DNA from: Arthrobacter sp. MYb213
Lineage (GTDB): Bacteria > Actinomycetota > Actinomycetes > Actinomycetales > Micrococcaceae
Reading direction: 5' to 3'
Assembly (NCBI RefSeq): GCF_002979915.1
Contig: NZ_PCQA01000004.1
Location: 310,001 to 374,000, forward strand
DNA: 64,000 nt
Positions 48,474 through 55,212 of this stretch are shown here, piece after piece. The number at the start of each line of letters is the position of its first letter. The stretch's first letter is position 1. Both the position numbers and the translations under genes were made by a program. The notes beneath the pieces are model-generated. The model made no database searches, was not told the DNA's origin, and was given only the letters and a program-made list of their open reading frames with translations.

Positions 48474-49610
48474 ATGGGCATTGACACACAGATCATCTCG
48501 AATGAAAACGCAGAGAGCTACACCGTCGGCGATACCCGGCTCACGCTCGACACTTTGCGTGCAGCAACCATCAAGGCGGCCTACACCACTCGCTTTGTTT
48601 CGGCCGAACTAAACCGCAACCCCCAGGACTTCCACATCGTGGCCAGCTCAACGATGGCTCCCCGCGCCGGGGACGTGGTCATCGCGAAAGTCACCGAAAT
48701 TGGCAAGCACACTGCGTTGCAGTCACCACACTCGCGTCGTCAAAAGCTCTTTGTTGGTCAAGAAGTCATGGTCGCGTACGGGGATCGATATGCTCCGGAT
48801 CAGTTCCTCGCCCACGTTCCAAAAAACCTCGGACCATGCCAGTTGGTGGCCGGCGGCGGTGTCGCCTCGCTGGTCGAGCAGCAGCACGCGTCCATCGATC
48901 GCGCTACCGAGCTAGAGCCGGTTGGACTGCTGATGCGCGGCGGTAAAGTCGTGACCCTGCGAGACTTCGCCCCACTGAGCATCGAGAACCCTTCGGTCAA
49001 TGCCAGCGCACAAGGCCAAGGACACCGTGTGCCGGTGATCGCGGTCCTCGGCACCTCCATGAACTCCGGAAAATCAACGACTCTAGGCTGCCTGGTTAAT
49101 GGTTTGAATAACGCGGGGCTGCGCGTTGCTGCCGGTAAAGCCACCGGTACCGGAGCCGGGAACGACCCCAATCTGTTCACCGATGCCGGAGCTTTCAGCG
49201 TCTGCGATTTCACCGACTTCGGTTACCCAACCACCTACCGTCTGGACTATGACACGGTGCGTGAGCTGCTGGTCTGCATGATCCAAGAGCAAAGCGCCAC
49301 CGGCGCCGACGCGGTGATCATCGAGATCGCCGATGGACTGTTCCAGGGTGAAACCTCCCGTCTCTTAGGCGACCAAATCTTCAAGGAACACGTTGACCGG
49401 GTACTATTCAGCGCCCAGGACGCGCTTGGCGCTAAAGCTGGAGAGAGAATTCTTCTCGACGCAGGCCTTGACCTCGCCGCAGTCTCCGGTGTGCTCACCG
49501 CATCCCCATTGGCTGCCGCGGAAGCTCGTGCGCATATGGACAGTGAAATCATCGACACCTTCGACCTGTGTGACCCCCAGGTGGCTAGCGCACTGCTGCC
49601 AACTCGTTAG
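48474..49610 (+). CDS. P-loop NTPase with novel N-terminal domain (DUF1611/MobB-like, tentative)
   Basis: 378 residues. Residues 1-180 form an unassigned, soluble domain (GDVVIAKVTEIGKHTALQSPHSRRQKLFVGQEVMVAYGDRY and GPCQLVAGGGVASLVEQQ). Residues about 188-378 form a P-loop NTPase: Walker A GTSMNSGKST (193-202), AAGKATGTGAGNDPNLFTDAGA, and ADAVIIEIADGLFQGE as a likely Walker B. It resembles MobB/DUF1611-type GTP/ATP-binding proteins, but the assignment is uncertain. AAAGG upstream. The degenerate ABC exporter gene follows after eight bases, so the two products probably work together. Confidence 0.72.
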   Translation: MGIDTQIISNENAESYTVGDTRLTLDTLRAATIKAAYTTRFVSAELNRNPQDFHIVASSTMAPRAGDVVIAKVTEIGKHTALQSPHSRRQKLFVGQEVMVAYGDRYAPDQFLAHVPKNLGPCQLVAGGGVASLVEQQHASIDRATELEPVGLLMRGGKVVTLRDFAPLSIENPSVNASAQGQGHRVPVIAVLGTSMNSGKSTTLGCLVNGLNNAGLRVAAGKATGTGAGNDPNLFTDAGAFSVCDFTDFGYPTTYRLDYDTVRELLVCMIQEQSATGADAVIIEIADGLFQGETSRLLGDQIFKEHVDRVLFSAQDALGAKAGERILLDAGLDLAAVSGVLTASPLAAAEARAHMDSEIIDTFDLCDPQVASALLPTR

Positions 49611-49618
49611 GAGCATCC

Positions 49619-51274
49619 ATGTCAGGCATATATTCCGAACACCCAATGGTACGTGAACCAGCGCTGCCAGCGCTGATTGCACCCGGACGGCGCATGCTGC
49701 TGGCGACACTACTGCTACTGGCCTTAGCAGTCGGGGTGCTCTCGGTGATCATTGCATGGCAGGTAGGGCAACTCGCGGCAGCTTTCTCCTTGGGAGCCCT
49801 GCTGTGGGTGATCGTGTTGTCTGCGGTCTTCTTCGGTGGAAAGTTTGCCGAGAGAGTATTGGCAGAAAAACTCGGTCAGCACTACGTGGCTCAGCTACGA
49901 GTGTCCTTGATATCCCACGCGCTCAAGGCGAGCCGCGGGCCATCGGTTGGAATTACCGTAGCTCGCTCCAGCAATGATTTGTCCTCCATTCGGAATTGGG
50001 TCACTCAGGGGATTGTGCCATTGATTGCCGGAATCCCGCTGATTATTTTTGGTGCTTTCGGTTTAGGGCTTTTACATCCGCTCTTGGCTGTAGCCCTAGT
50101 GATTCCAGTGTTGTTGGAGGTAAGTTTGCTCGCCGGCTTGGCCCGAGGGGCCCTGCGCACCGCGCGAGTACTACGTCGGCACCGGGGCAATCTTGCCGCG
50201 CGCATCGCCGACACGGTGTCAGCGTCCACCACCATTAGCGCGGCTGGCGGGGTGCACCGCGAGGTGCAACGTGTAGATCAGAGCGCGCAAAAGGTTGTGC
50301 ACGCCTCGGTGCACCGGGCAAAATATGCCGGAGCGCTGCGAGCCGGCGCATTGAGCGTCCCGCTGGTGGGCACCGCGCTGGTCGTTGCAGCTGGCTCATG
50401 GGCTGGATTAGGCGCAGGATTATTGGCTAGCGCACTAACGCTGATGGGGATCTGTGCTGGAACCATGGGGGAGTGGGGCCGGATTGTTGAATATCGGCAA
50501 AACTATCGAGCCGGCCGGCGGATCATTGCTCCACTGCTTGAACAGGAAAAATCTTGGCGTGAAGCCGAACAACAACTAACCTCTACCCGAGTGTCCAAAG
50601 ACTTGAACCTTGAGGAGTTGGCGGTGCGGATTCGCCCCACCGCCGAAGGGCTAGAAGGCTGGCCCTCATTGCGGGCACAAGGCGGAGCGCGAATACAGCT
50701 TCTGGGCACTGGGGCACAATCAAATGCCCTACTTGAAGCACTAGCGACCGGACGGGTCGGAACAGACGTTCAGCGCTTAGGCGGACTGTGGATTGCCGAA
50801 GGTCGAAGCGAGGATTTGCCGGCTACCGAACGGCGCAAGCTGGTAGGCGCGGCCTTGAACACGATGGCCCTCGAACGCGGCACGATACTTCGTGCACTGA
50901 CGTATCGCCATCCCGGCTCCTCGACCAAACGGGCACTGCGTTTGGCCGATGAGTGTGGGCTTGAAGTGACTAGTCTTCCCGAGGGCGAAAGCACCATGTT
51001 GCGTCGTGGAGGAGAACCTTTGGACTCCGCTCAGCGAGCCTCGTTGATCATGGCGCGTGCCCTGTTGCGACAACCGGCAGTTCTCATTGTCGATTCGGTC
51101 ATCAACCGGTTGCCGCATGAAGCACAGACCGACTTGGCTGCGCGGCTTAACGATTACCCAGGCGTGGTAATTTTCCACGGTGAAATGACCGGGATTAAAG
51201 CCACTCGCACGTGGGAACCAACGGCGACACAGGACGTGGCGGTATTGCAGCCGGCCGGGGCTGACGAAGAATAG
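49619..51274 (+). CDS. ABC exporter-like protein with degenerate ATPase domain
   Basis: 551 residues. About six membrane helices (residues 26-290) arranged like a type IV ABC exporter half-transporter are followed by an NBD-like domain (about 330-545). The catalytic motifs are lost. The Walker A position reads LLGTGAQSNALLEAL (no Lys, 361-375), the signature reads LRRGGEPLDSAQRASLIMARALL, and Walker B AVLIVDS has Ser493 where the catalytic Glu belongs. The fold outline is kept, so the frame is under selection rather than decaying. It probably relies on a partner NTPase, perhaps the preceding P-loop protein. Confidence 0.78.
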   Translation: MSGIYSEHPMVREPALPALIAPGRRMLLATLLLLALAVGVLSVIIAWQVGQLAAAFSLGALLWVIVLSAVFFGGKFAERVLAEKLGQHYVAQLRVSLISHALKASRGPSVGITVARSSNDLSSIRNWVTQGIVPLIAGIPLIIFGAFGLGLLHPLLAVALVIPVLLEVSLLAGLARGALRTARVLRRHRGNLAARIADTVSASTTISAAGGVHREVQRVDQSAQKVVHASVHRAKYAGALRAGALSVPLVGTALVVAAGSWAGLGAGLLASALTLMGICAGTMGEWGRIVEYRQNYRAGRRIIAPLLEQEKSWREAEQQLTSTRVSKDLNLEELAVRIRPTAEGLEGWPSLRAQGGARIQLLGTGAQSNALLEALATGRVGTDVQRLGGLWIAEGRSEDLPATERRKLVGAALNTMALERGTILRALTYRHPGSSTKRALRLADECGLEVTSLPEGESTMLRRGGEPLDSAQRASLIMARALLRQPAVLIVDSVINRLPHEAQTDLAARLNDYPGVVIFHGEMTGIKATRTWEPTATQDVAVLQPAGADEE

Positions 51275-51301: not shown

Positions 51302-51916
51302 CTAGTGATCGGTGACCGGTTCGTGTGTTGCTAACAATCCATCAACGATGAATAGCACGGAGTTTAAGATGGTTTCGCGGTCCTCTGGGTTCATCGAGGC
51401 GGCACGTAGCCGCGCCGAGAATAGCGCCGCACCAAAGAGCGCGGTAGCCACCGGTTCTTTTTCTTCTTGGCCTAAAACAACTATCCGGTCTATGACTTCA
51501 ATAATTGTTGAGGTCACCCGGGTATAGACCGGGGTGATCTGTTCTCCCCAGTCACTTTCGGGGCTTAGCTGTTCACTGATCCAGATTTGTGCGAATGAAG
51601 GATATTTCTCGACAAAATCAATGGCGATTGTTGCCATGGTGCGTAAGGCATCCCGAGGTTCGGCGAGTGTGGACGCCTCGTCTAGCTGGGCAACTAGCAT
51701 GTCAGCACCGAACTCCAAGACTTGACCAATCATCTTGTCTTTGGAACCAAAGTTGTAATACACGGTGCCCTTGGATACCCCAGCAATTTGTGCGATTTCG
51801 TCTACCGAAACTGCGTTGGGTCCGCGTGCCCCGAGCAGCTGCATTGATGCCGCGAACAGTCGCTCCTTGGAATCAGTAACCCGGGTACGGGGGCGCGAGT
51901 TAGGTGATGCGGTCAT
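51302..51916 (-). CDS. TetR-family repressor
   Basis: 204 residues. The TetR_N helix-turn-helix is TDSKERLFAASMQLLGARGPNAVSVDEIAQIAGVSKGTVYYNFGSKDKMI; a TetR_C-type helical ligand domain follows. Last gene of the minus-strand unit after the ABC-like and YhgE genes (four-base overlap). It probably binds the 32-bp palindrome at 55221-55252 and so represses its own operon. Confidence 0.9.
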   Translation of the reverse strand: MTASPNSRPRTRVTDSKERLFAASMQLLGARGPNAVSVDEIAQIAGVSKGTVYYNFGSKDKMIGQVLEFGADMLVAQLDEASTLAEPRDALRTMATIAIDFVEKYPSFAQIWISEQLSPESDWGEQITPVYTRVTSTIIEVIDRIVVLGQEEKEPVATALFGAALFSARLRAASMNPEDRETILNSVLFIVDGLLATHEPVTDH

Positions 51917-54243
51917 ACCGTCAGCTCCGGTTGTAACGTCTTTAGTGTCCAGGTCTTATGCTTGCGCACTGCCAAGAAACTCAACAGTAGCCCCAGCACC
52001 ATGTATCCGATCACCGGGAGGATAGTACTAACAAGCATACTCAGATCAGCACCATAGATCACGTGCCTTAGCGCTGCCACCACATTGCTCATCGGGAGGA
52101 TTTGGTGCAAGAACTGTAAGGGGGCCGGAAGTGTTTCCCACGGGAACGTGCCTCCGGCAGTCACCAACTGGAGAACCATCAGCAGCAGCACCACAAATTT
52201 ACCTGCGGCACCCATCAGAGCACAGATGCCTTGAATCAATGCACTGAAGCAAAGCGAAGCTAGCAGTAGTAGGGCCCAGGTCAGCCACGGGTGTACCGGA
52301 TCCAATCCGATAGCGAAAACTACCACCGCATATAAGGCGGTGCACTGAATAACGGAGATGAAGGCAAAGGGAAGCCACGCCCCGAGAGCGATCTTCCAGC
52401 TTCTACCATTAGAAGCCAACGCGCGATTATTGACCGGGCGCATGACCTGGGTAAGGATGAATGTGCCAATCCAGGTGGCTAGGGTCATGAAGAACGGTGC
52501 CAACCCTGCACCGTATGCGCCCGCTTTGGTTTGGGCGTTCGAGTTCACTCGCAGCGGGTCACCGATCACGTCTGCTAATTGATCAGAAGCAGTCGAATCC
52601 GGATTTGGTACCTGATCTACGCCGTCGTCTAGTCCCTTGGACAGGTCGCCGGAACCATCCTTAAGCTCGTGAGCGCCGTCGCCGAGCTTACCGACACCTT
52701 CATCAAGACTGATCAACGAGTCATGCAAGGTACCTGTTCCGGTAGCGAGTTCCTGGGCACCTGCATTTAGTTTTTTGCTGCCTTGTGCGGCTTCCTTGGT
52801 TCCCGACAGAGCAGATTTTTGCCCGTCTTCTAGGGTCGAGGTGCCAGCGGCCAATTTTTGCGAGCCATCGGCAAGCTGGCTACCACCATTTGCTGCCGAG
52901 GAGATTCCGTCCACAAGAGCTGGCACCGAGGCGTCCAATTTTTTGGTGCCCTGCGCGAGGGTGTGTAATCCGCTGGCTAACTGTTTATTGCCGTCGGCAA
53001 CTTTTTCCGAACCTTCCGCGAGCTGGTTCAGGTCTTCTTGCGTAGAGCTAAGTTTTGCGTTGACATCTTTGACCTTGCTATTGAGCTGCTGGGTAACCGT
53101 TGAATTTTGTACGGTGGATTTCAGCTGCGCGGAGATCTGATCTGCTTGCTCTTGCGTCAGAGTGCCTGCGGTGACTTGAGCATTCAGGAAGTCAGCGGTG
53201 TTCTTCTCTACTTGATTCAGCCGCGTTTCGGCATCGGTCTGCAATTCTTGGATCACGCTCATAGCGTCGTCCGCGGTGGCGCTGAGTTTCGCGTTGCCAT
53301 CGGCTACCTGCCGAGAACCTGTGGCTAATTGGTCAGCCGAGGAGGCTGCCTTCTGGGTTCCGTCGTTAAGCTTAGAGACCGAGCTAGGCAGGGTAGATGT
53401 TTTTGATTCTAAGGTGTTTAGACCCTTGCTCAGTGTCTGGGCTCCTGAATTTAGCTCGGTGCTGCCCTTGGAGAGCTCGTGGGTACCAGAGACTAGCTTG
53501 TCTTGGCCGTCGGTCAACTTTCCTAAGCCAGTGGACAGGGTGCCGGTACCATCATGGAGCGCCTGTGCGCCGTCTTCAAGTTTGGCTCCGCCGGTGACTA
53601 ACTGCGCGGTGCCATCTTGTACGGTGACCACACCATCGGAGAGCGTAATGGTGCCATCATAGAGTTTCTTGGCCCCATCGGCGGCTTCGCCCATTGATTT
53701 GTGGATGTCGACAAAGCCAGCAATCATGCCTTCAGCAGTTTCGGTTCCAACTTCTTTTGACACCGAATCTCGTACCTCGGTGGCCAGGGTTTTGGCGAAG
53801 TTACTGGCCATGAAGTTATTGGCATCATTTGTGGTCAGCTCGAGGTTTGCCGCATTGGCTTTTTTCATCTCGGCGGGGGAGGTGAGGGAAGCTGAAAAGT
53901 CTTGGGGGATGGTCATCGCGAAGGCATAGTCGCCATGGGCAACACCATCAGCGGCAGCCTGCTGTGAGTCAACTACTTCCCAGTCGAAGGTGGAGTCTTT
54001 CAAGAGGGATTCGACTACCTCGTCACCCACCTTCGTGGCTTTCCCGTCTCGCTCGGCTCCATCATCGAGGTTCACCAAAGCAGTTTTGATGCCACTGAGG
54101 TTTGATTGTGGGTCCCAGTTGCCATAGAGGTAGAGAGCCCCGTAGAGCAGCGGTACGCAGGTTACCGCGATCAGCGCCAATTTGGGCAAGGTTCCACGGG
54201 TCATGCGCTTGAGCTCAGAGAGAGCAAGTCCCAGAGTCGTCAT
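51913..54243 (-). CDS. YhgE/Pip-family membrane protein
   Basis: 776 residues. An N-terminal membrane helix (LPKLALIAVTCVPLLYGALYLYGNW) is followed by a very long extracytoplasmic domain. Many repeated L-x-D/S-G-x-x-x-L-A-x-G units (about residues 170-520) are predicted to form an extended helical or coiled-coil stalk. About five C-terminal helices then form an ABC-2-like membrane domain. The family includes the lactococcal phage-infection protein Pip and mycobacterial MmpL-independent exporters. It sits between an ABC-ATPase-like gene and tetR. Confidence 0.88.
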   Translation of the reverse strand: MTTLGLALSELKRMTRGTLPKLALIAVTCVPLLYGALYLYGNWDPQSNLSGIKTALVNLDDGAERDGKATKVGDEVVESLLKDSTFDWEVVDSQQAAADGVAHGDYAFAMTIPQDFSASLTSPAEMKKANAANLELTTNDANNFMASNFAKTLATEVRDSVSKEVGTETAEGMIAGFVDIHKSMGEAADGAKKLYDGTITLSDGVVTVQDGTAQLVTGGAKLEDGAQALHDGTGTLSTGLGKLTDGQDKLVSGTHELSKGSTELNSGAQTLSKGLNTLESKTSTLPSSVSKLNDGTQKAASSADQLATGSRQVADGNAKLSATADDAMSVIQELQTDAETRLNQVEKNTADFLNAQVTAGTLTQEQADQISAQLKSTVQNSTVTQQLNSKVKDVNAKLSSTQEDLNQLAEGSEKVADGNKQLASGLHTLAQGTKKLDASVPALVDGISSAANGGSQLADGSQKLAAGTSTLEDGQKSALSGTKEAAQGSKKLNAGAQELATGTGTLHDSLISLDEGVGKLGDGAHELKDGSGDLSKGLDDGVDQVPNPDSTASDQLADVIGDPLRVNSNAQTKAGAYGAGLAPFFMTLATWIGTFILTQVMRPVNNRALASNGRSWKIALGAWLPFAFISVIQCTALYAVVVFAIGLDPVHPWLTWALLLLASLCFSALIQGICALMGAAGKFVVLLLMVLQLVTAGGTFPWETLPAPLQFLHQILPMSNVVAALRHVIYGADLSMLVSTILPVIGYMVLGLLLSFLAVRKHKTWTLKTLQPELTV

Positions 54244-54246
54244 GAG

Positions 54247-55212
54247 TTAGTCCTTTGGGGTGGATGATTTTGCTGCAAGCTCGGCTTCTTCTTGCGCAGG
54301 AGGTTCAGGTACTTCGGGTGCTTCGGGAGCTTCGCGGTGAAGCGGTGAAGATTCCAAGAGCTCGGCAGTATTTTGCGGCTCGGATTCTTTGACCATTTCA
54401 GAGGTGGTATCCGTTGGAGGGGTGTAATCCTCAAGCGCCGCAGGCTCCGCTGAGCTGGTTGTTTCTACGAACTCGGTGTCCGTGGGTTCGTCCGTCGGTA
54501 GTTCCGGTGCCGGCTCGACATCGACCTCGTGGGCCTCCGGATCATTTTCAATCTGTGGGACGGTCGCGGTTTGTAATGCCGAGTCGTCGATGGTGGCTGT
54601 TTGTCCGGCGAATACGACGGGGCCCTGCCAACTATCAGGGATTCTAGAAACTACGGCGATGACGGTGAGCTGACGACGTGTATGGGTTAGTTCTTCCAAC
54701 GATTCCAGCCATGTCGGTTCGTCGATGCCGTGGCGGTCCGGAGAATCAAAAACCAGACAATCGGTGTCGTGGTTTTCTAAGGCAAGCTGCGTAAGCAGGT
54801 CTAAGCGGGTCTGTGGGTCGATAGCGTCGATCCAGTCTCCGGCGAGGTGCTCAAAACCGTGTTTGGCTAACCACTTCTTGCTTTGCGGGCGGCGCCAGAA
54901 AGGTCCGGGAACTAGAGATAGATCCTCGCTAACGACGTCTCGGACCTTCAGGTGGGCCTCGGGCTCGTTGACTTGCGGGGAGTCAACGAGCGCACTGTGT
55001 GCGCGTAGCGTTTTCATGCCAGGCGCCGTAGACCACTGGACAGTCCCCGAACTAGGGCTCATTCGCCCAGAAAGCATCAGGGCGAGAGCGGTGCGCTCAA
55101 GCTGCGCATCGGCAACCACAAGCAATAGCGCACCTCGCTCGACTGCCAGGGAGGTTTTGTCGACGAGCTGGCCGTGGCGCCCTTTGAAGCTCAATGAATT
55201 AGCAATTAACAC
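54247..55212 (-). CDS. ABC-ATPase-like protein lacking catalytic motifs, with acidic tail
   Basis: 321 residues from GTG 55212. Residues 1-215 follow an ABC NBD outline (MLIANSLSFKGRHGQLVDKTSLAVERGALLLVV, LALMLSGRMSPSSGTVQW), but the P-loop reads VVADAQLERTAL without Gly-Lys. The Walker B position is CLVFDSPDRHG without the catalytic Glu. Residues about 225-321 are a Pro/Glu/Thr-rich disordered tail. The start follows a -10 box by six bases, so the message is leaderless. Three bases separate it from yhgE, implying a partner role for that ABC-2-like protein. Confidence 0.72.
   Translation of the reverse strand: MLIANSLSFKGRHGQLVDKTSLAVERGALLLVVADAQLERTALALMLSGRMSPSSGTVQWSTAPGMKTLRAHSALVDSPQVNEPEAHLKVRDVVSEDLSLVPGPFWRRPQSKKWLAKHGFEHLAGDWIDAIDPQTRLDLLTQLALENHDTDCLVFDSPDRHGIDEPTWLESLEELTHTRRQLTVIAVVSRIPDSWQGPVVFAGQTATIDDSALQTATVPQIENDPEAHEVDVEPAPELPTDEPTDTEFVETTSSAEPAALEDYTPPTDTTSEMVKESEPQNTAELLESSPLHREAPEAPEVPEPPAQEEAELAAKSSTPKD

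Follow-up and report, generated by a model that had tools for sequence, protein, structure and literature searches.

The question raised by this locus is how a protein with the build of an ATP-binding cassette (ABC) exporter can operate when its nucleotide-binding domain (NBD), hydrolysis by which is taken as the defining trait of ABC exporters, has lost its ATP site, and what the P-loop protein encoded immediately upstream contributes. The two genes lie in a window of 64,000 nucleotides (contig NZ_PCQA01000004.1, positions 310,001 to 374,000 of the forward strand) of the 3.79 Mb genome of Arthrobacter sp. MYb213. Their products are referred to here as the NTPase (nucleoside triphosphatase), which shares 96% identity with its counterpart in Glutamicibacter ardleyensis, and the exporter. 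Both open reading frames are uninterrupted, 8 bp apart, and placed as in a previous interpretation made from the letters of the window (the sequence-only reading). The component parts are of known kinds; what is novel is their lasting association, in which the ATP site has been lost more than once.

An exporter fold without its ATP site

The window exporter matches PF00664 in Pfam (E 7.8e-10) and has no match to the NBD family PF00005 up to E 1; its best NCBIfam match, CydC (E 7e-18), is far under the cut-off of that model. The AlphaFold2 (AF2) model, made from 61 sequences, has a pLDDT of 90.3 and helices that can be read as six transmembrane helices, the last in two segments, followed by an NBD-like domain. 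In VIA-align the model superposes on a CydDC chain with Z 25.9 over 505 residues, and residues 330-537 superpose on the NBD of LipB with Z 22.1 (2.5 Å over 202 residues). By this prediction the exporter has the six-helix membrane domain of an ABC exporter joined to a domain of NBD fold, and the view that it keeps six helices and the outline of an NBD is borne out by the model.

The motifs of that domain are another matter. The Walker A stretch reads GTGAQSNALL, the signature LDSAQ, and the Walker B VLIVD is followed by Ser rather than the catalytic Glu, in agreement with the sequence-only reading; the H-switch is also lost, leaving the window exporter with no working ATP site, which would need Walker A, signature, a Walker B followed by Glu, and the H-switch. 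This state is general. Among 74 exporters (73 loci and the window) there is no Walker A Lys and no classical Walker A of the form G-x4-GK[ST] in the NBD, the catalytic Glu is kept in 5, LSSGQ is still present in one (L063; loci are identified by L numbers), and the Lys, the S-x-G signature and the H-switch are all missing together in 70. The 74 rows are what is left of a 77-row motif table after removal of the partial rows L116, L123, and L131, with L139 retained though its match is split across two frames. An exporter alignment took in 60 of 73 sequences, with near-duplicates removed. As to L139 itself, the locus, from Pseudarthrobacter sp. Fe7 (L139:10960-12768), may carry a frameshift in the exporter.

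Purifying selection acts on the dead NBD. Across 37 non-independent pairs drawn from 32 related exporters, a few with high synonymous divergence and none with a live NBD as control, the ratio of non-synonymous to synonymous substitution rates (dN/dS) is 0.12-0.45 for the dead NBD, compared with 0.05-0.31 for the exporter transmembrane domain (TMD) and 0.06-0.24 for the NTPase.

Which parts of the NBD have been kept was seen by comparing the information content of 39 dead exporters with that of 9 exporters that have a Walker A. The dead/live ratio falls to 0.59 at Walker A, 0.67 at the signature, 0.78 at the D-loop, 0.81 at Walker B, and 0.85 at the H-loop, and does not fall in the segment from the Q-loop to YRxP (1.00), at the X-loop position (1.02), or in the TMD (1.02), this last serving as an internal yardstick. 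The live exporters are few and diverge more from one another, which lowers their information. Residues 400-433, the first of the kept segments, are expected to face the TMD, and residues 458-468 are at the X-loop position; in known exporters the segments that are kept touch the coupling helices. Some residues, E419 and P467 among them, reach 95% conservation in the dead exporters and do not occur in the live ones. Retention of these segments lends appeal to a conjectural role of the pseudo-NBD in docking or hand-over.

The same comparison bears on whether the protein might have ceased to transport at all, being instead a membrane anchor, receptor or scaffold that retains or controls the NTPase or detects a ligand. 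The retention of the fold without its ATP motifs, and of pseudo-NBD residues conserved only in the dead set, would fit such a role, but the TMD is conserved in dead exporters much as in live ones, and the conserved charged residues are kept as they would be in a working transport path, which makes this explanation distinctly unlikely.

Conservation of the pair and repeated loss of the NBD site

Of 197 genomes of the family, 53 have the NTPase, and exactly these 53 also have a close exporter, the weakest best match being E 2.5e-73 for the NTPase and 1.8e-46 for the close exporter. The next genome for the exporter is at 1.4e-18, and the cut-off of 1e-40 was chosen after this gap was visible. In the remaining 144 genomes neither gene was found, though some may have been missed, as only the best first-look candidates were scored. 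Adjacency and gene order are shared by 52 of the 53; in the other (G105) the genes are on separate contigs.

A scan of 84,980 species genomes gave 456 relatives of the NTPase, and the counts that follow are for the best 80 of these 456, which, judged by the names they bear, are all actinobacterial. An exporter-family match is downstream of the NTPase in 77 of the 80 loci, and at L077 the start of an exporter is present at the end of the contig, which gives 78 loci with the pair. There is no exporter at L107, where about 650 bp of sequence remains, or at L133 (Tessaracoccus). In 76 measurable pairs the stop and start overlap by 1-4 bp in 37 and are 0-40 bp apart in 27, distances that are biased towards the short by use of the start nearest to the stop. 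The pair genes are the only ones widely conserved at loci of the dead type, each in 75 of 80, with the next family in 25 of 80, as judged from our own rough gene calls. The families beside the window pair are found at 16 (YhgE/Pip), 7 (TetR), and 13 (histidine phosphatase) of the 80 loci. The two genes are one conserved and probably functional unit. The conservation of pair and motif loss, which the sequence-only reading had left to be checked, is borne out by these data.

A pathway for the dead pair derived from its neighbourhood was also sought and was rejected, only the two pair genes being widely conserved in the 80 loci. At one locus of Corynebacterium pollutisoli (L108:8482-11035) two tandem copies of the NTPase gene precede a single exporter. 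The pair is also carried by a sequence from human faeces labelled as phage (MT835675, L194:5905-8779), which may be a bacterial contig; its exporter has neither Walker A nor LSxGQ by pattern.

The possibility that the exporter forms a heterodimer, its other half being a live ABC half-transporter whose gene lies elsewhere in the genome, has in its favour that the nearest structural matches, TmrAB and CydDC, are heterodimers, and that a dead and a live pair occur together at L118. Neither composite site would be complete, however, as the subunit is without both Walker A and signature, and no second exporter gene is conserved beside the pair in the 80 loci, a search that did not extend to the rest of the genome. 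A heterodimer is accordingly improbable.

Relatives with live exporters do exist. Distant NTPases stand beside exporters with a Walker A in L155-L161, in the second pair of L118, and in the alphaproteobacterial L189. All scored motifs are intact in L155, L156, L157, L159, and L160. Partial decay occurs too, since the L118 live exporter has lost the second signature Gly and the H, those of L158 and L161 have lost the catalytic Glu and the H, and in L189 an E replaces the Q of the signature. Family searches around two live genomes matched 2 of 16 and 1 of 5 genomes, the query genome counted. Dead paired exporters, with residues that differ from those of the actinobacterial ones, occur in Paracoccus albus, P. 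liaowanqingii, and Tritonibacter mobilis, in each case on a plasmid; the paired exporter in Sulfitobacter is a live form.

In the NTPase tree (58 rows) the 40 actinobacterial dead rows form a single clade (support 100/99), and the three alphaproteobacterial dead rows (99/94) join the live L189 (100/100). A tree of the exporter membrane domain (52 rows, with a distant outgroup) gives the same two groups (100/99 and 100/99), with L189 joined at 99/99. These trees took in 38 of the 80 loci. As the dead rows fall in separate groups, and as re-gain of a complete ATP site is implausible, the NBD site has been lost at least twice, in Actinomycetota and on alphaproteobacterial plasmids. A single origin of the dead exporters was rejected, the constrained tree costing 98.9 log-likelihood units (p 0.0002 in the approximately unbiased test, for a group that was named after the motifs and the tree were known).

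Simple decay, with the exporter a pseudogene in this strain, was rejected on the selection, the motif loss in 74 of 74, and the second independent loss. Decay would fit the absence of the ATP motifs, the broken look of the frame in the L139 exporter, and the intact motifs of some relatives. Against it, the reading frame is open and under selection, both the pairing and the loss of motifs are conserved features, and the same state has arisen again in the Alphaproteobacteria, which leaves decay extremely improbable. That the frame is intact and the change evolved, as first proposed, therefore stands. It had also been proposed that relatives with intact Walker motifs would mean decay here: such relatives are found on other branches, but decay does not follow from them, because a deep clade carries the loss throughout and it has recurred elsewhere.

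Several loci of these lineages have particular neighbourhoods. In Arthrobacter sp. AL12 a dead pair and a live pair are present at one locus (L118:9794-12699 and L118:14966-18036), with a PGA_cap protein after the live pair. Two membrane-protein-like genes are upstream of the dead pairs of Gulosibacter and Zimmermannella (L100, L111, L114, L132) and resemble the HTTM neighbours of live pairs, with an HTTM score at these genes of 0.0026 in L114, under the cut-off, and nothing in L132. On a plasmid of Microvirga (L188:8929-10692) the NTPase frame enters a fragment of a Mutator transposase, and CapA, HlyD, and an ABC gene are on the opposite side.

The partner NTPase and the drive of transport

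The model of the NTPase has a pLDDT of 93.5, and most of its rows in VIA-align cover residues 183-378. This part matches BioD, the dethiobiotin synthetase, with Z 15.6 (rmsd 2.8 Å over 182 residues), CTP synthase with Z 14.7, the signal recognition particle (SRP) GTPases with Z 14.4, and the DUF1611 structures 2g0t_A (Z 14.6, 170 residues) and 2obn_A (Z 14.0, 181 residues). DgcN is a member of the DUF1611 family. As these values are nearly tied, the fold can be assigned only as a SIMIBI-type P-loop. The idea that the partner was wholly of an unknown family is not upheld by these matches. Its Walker A, read from the first as a good one, is GTSMNSGKST at residues 193-202, of the form GX5GK, which is also seen in the aligned dethiobiotin synthetase.

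Sequence comparison favours the BioD/DUF1611 kind, through the GTxxxxGK motif, a second Lys that is weakly aligned, and weak matches to PF07755. This family scores 21.6 bits with the window NTPase, under its gathering cut-off of 25 and over 43 of 201 profile positions, with weak matches in 15 of 16 members; there is no match to it in the window's own genome at E 1e-5, and none in 60 genomes of the class. AAA_26, the BioD-type family in Pfam, is not reported for the window NTPase and reaches E 0.056 in one of the 16 members, and the BioD model is absent among the NCBIfam matches of the window NTPase. A search of the PDB by sequence with the NTPase gave nothing significant, the best profile being HflX (E 0.034). 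In the names given by NCBI, one relative is a dethiobiotin synthase and two are DUF1611.

G193, M196, N197, G199, K200, K222, D231, D237, D245, D248, E284, and D287 are invariant in 69 NTPase sequences; the alignment of locus NTPases took in 68 of 82, near-duplicates omitted. The counterparts of K200, K222, D231, D245, and E284 are also invariant in 15 relatives that are paired with live exporters, paired with dead ones, or without an exporter; D237, D248, and D287 vary among the same 15. With these five invariant beside live and dead exporters, the key residues of the NTPase were unchanged when the exporter died. Since the relatives adjoin live exporters or occur without any, the four distant relatives of the latter kind having none within the stretch read, the NTPase did not arise as a replacement motor.

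This bears on the possibility, raised in the sequence-only reading, that the exporter is powered or gated in trans by the NTPase, and on a fuller version in which the NTPase would dock on the pseudo-NBD as motor or gate and its nucleotide cycle would move the membrane domain in place of NBD hydrolysis. Such an arrangement is possible, if unlikely. It would account for the co-occurrence of the two genes and their overlapping stops and starts, for the retention of those pseudo-NBD segments expected to face the TMD, for E419 and P467 being nearly invariant in the dead clade only, and for the repeated death of the NBD among exporters paired with the NTPase, and the SRP-type GTPases match the fold well. 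It is not supported as stated: NTPases with the same five key residues adjoin exporters that have their own Walker A, four have no exporter in the stretch read, and the best Z is with a metabolic enzyme. Indeed, a dedicated replacement motor is made less likely by a partner that predates the loss and looks metabolic.

The contexts of the relatives suggest chemistry of amino acids or peptides. Their neighbours include PGA_cap (L118, L155), HTTM (L157, L158, L161), a D-aminopeptidase of family M55 (L160), and an M20 peptidase (L166), and in the Alphaproteobacteria an alpha/beta hydrolase or hypothetical gene precedes the pair. On a plasmid of Priestia megaterium (L193, 5893-6954) a distant relative of the NTPase is in an apparent phosphonate or peptide gene cluster, with genes for a carbamoyltransferase, two ATP-grasp proteins, thiamine pyrophosphate enzymes, M20, an LLM oxidoreductase, and a member of the phosphoenolpyruvate mutase family.

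With its own ATP motor parts lost and its fold kept, the exporter would have to operate by a non-standard drive. The explanation that is tentatively preferred is that the pair comprises an ATP-dependent small-molecule enzyme and a dedicated transporter, of ABC-exporter ancestry, that works without hydrolysis by the NBD. A cytosolic enzyme of the BioD/DUF1611 kind and the transporter would act on the same small molecule, probably one that is amino-acid-like or peptide-like. The transporter would be a homodimer, moving its cargo without NBD hydrolysis in the dead clade, with the pseudo-NBD kept as a platform that couples to its membrane domain, and the drive would come from the ATP that the enzyme spends on the cargo, by modification and hand-over, and from the gradient that results. 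A more far-reaching form of this, in which the exporter lineage has twice swapped its own motor for an adjacent BioD-like enzyme, so that the reaction on the cargo and its hand-over at the pseudo-NBD drive transport, is a speculative and rather unlikely possibility; if true, it would be a modification-driven transporter, akin to group translocation, on the scaffold of an ABC exporter.

Several observations weigh against the preferred explanation. Foldseek ranks the SRP receptor GTPase FtsY first, and the SRP GTPases are near BioD by Z. The enzyme chemistry rests on the fold and on a weak sequence alignment (E 0.13), and the neighbours that are telling are those of relatives, not of the window locus, and differ among lineages. 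Two of the 80 NTPase loci (L107, L133) are without an exporter, where the enzyme may be kept alone, and the dN/dS of the dead NBD is greater than that of the TMD in 33 of the 37 pairs.

In another reading the exporter has become a secondary, proton-driven transporter and the NTPase is a separate enzyme of the same pathway; for such a change there is precedent in SbmA/BacA, which took it after loss of the NBD (PMC13316013). Transporters of this type have lost the NBD and the coupling helices and use a glutamate ladder. The NBD here is retained and selected, and no acidic residue specific to the dead clade stands at any TMD position conserved in 90% or more of that clade; at E78, E83, D120, E215, and E291 between 5 and 9 of the 9 live rows are acidic too. 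Proton drive of this kind is unlikely.

The features of the pair are collected in Table 1.

Table 1. Positions in the window of the two genes of the pair and of their domains and motifs
Feature	Position	Strand	Basis or remark
P-loop protein, 378 aa, BioD/DUF1611-like, gene 1 of the pair	48474..49610	+	
N-terminal domain, residues 1 to about 182, carrying the conserved GDVVIA...RRQ..FVGQE...RYAPDQF	48474..49019	+	
Walker A GTSMNSGKSTT, residues 193-203	49050..49082	+	Direct reading; K200 invariant in 69 sequences
KATGTGAGND, residues 222-231	49137..49166	+	K222 corresponds to the Lys of CKPVQTG in dethiobiotin synthetase in a weak alignment (E 0.13)
Acidic motif E284-I-A-D287	49323..49334	+	E284 and D287 invariant in 69 sequences, E284 also in 15 divergent relatives
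ABC-exporter-fold protein, 551 aa, with dead NBD, gene 2 of the pair	49619..51274	+	Profile match, AF2 model, structure alignment
Exporter transmembrane domain, residues 25-324	49691..50590	+	AF2 model
Pseudo-NBD, residues 330-537	50606..51229	+	AF2 model; LipB NBD, Z 22.1, 2.5 Å, 202 residues
Walker A remnant GTGAQSNAL, without Lys	50705..50731	+	
Kept segment from Q-loop to YRHP, residues 400-433	50816..50917	+	Information ratio dead/live 1.00
Kept stretch 5' of the signature, residues 458-468, including RRGGEPL	50990..51022	+	Information ratio dead/live 1.02
Degenerate signature LDSAQ, residues 468-472	51020..51034	+	
Walker B VLIVD, then Ser493 in place of the catalytic Glu	51080..51097	+	

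Elsewhere in the window, an NBD-like protein without a Walker A (VVADAQLERTALAL) is encoded at 54247-55212 (-), adjoining a YhgE/Pip exporter at 51913-54243 (-). It has a homologue in 48 of 100 genomes of the family and is possibly another conserved dead ABC ATPase.

Comparison with known systems

In the literature searched, which lacks most subscription journals, no paper on this gene pair was found. P-loop proteins of the DUF1611/BioD kind are barely described in the same literature, and DgcN receives a passing mention in PMC10845958. The pair offers a handle on such proteins. A widely conserved and selected exporter without a usable ATP site, together with live relatives and a second loss, makes for a natural comparison of before and after, which bears on the role of the pseudo-NBD, on how an ABC membrane domain may be driven otherwise, and on the product of the partner enzyme.

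BioD resembles the NTPase in its P-loop fold, its GX5GK Walker A, and the second Lys, the fold match not being specific. It differs in that the NTPase has an additional N-terminal domain and an adjacent transporter, and has no match to a BioD-type family at cut-off. The likeness to DUF1611 is in the fold of 2g0t and 2obn, with a sequence score below cut-off.

The predicted fold of the window exporter is as a whole that of the type I ABC half-exporters CydDC, TmrAB, and MsbA, from which its family differs in being without the Walker A Lys in 74 of 74. TmrAB, CydDC, and BmrCD, heterodimers with a degenerate site, have likewise lost catalytic residues in an NBD. Heterodimeric exporters of this sort retain one functional site, whereas the window exporter has lost both Walker A and signature and has no partner gene conserved nearby. 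With SbmA/BacA it shares an ABC-exporter membrane domain that works, or would have to work, without an ATPase of its own. These SbmA-like peptide transporters (SLiPTs) lost the whole NBD and the coupling helices and gained TM0 and the glutamate ladder (PMC13316013), whereas the window exporter keeps a pseudo-NBD (residues 330-537) and has an NTPase gene beside it.

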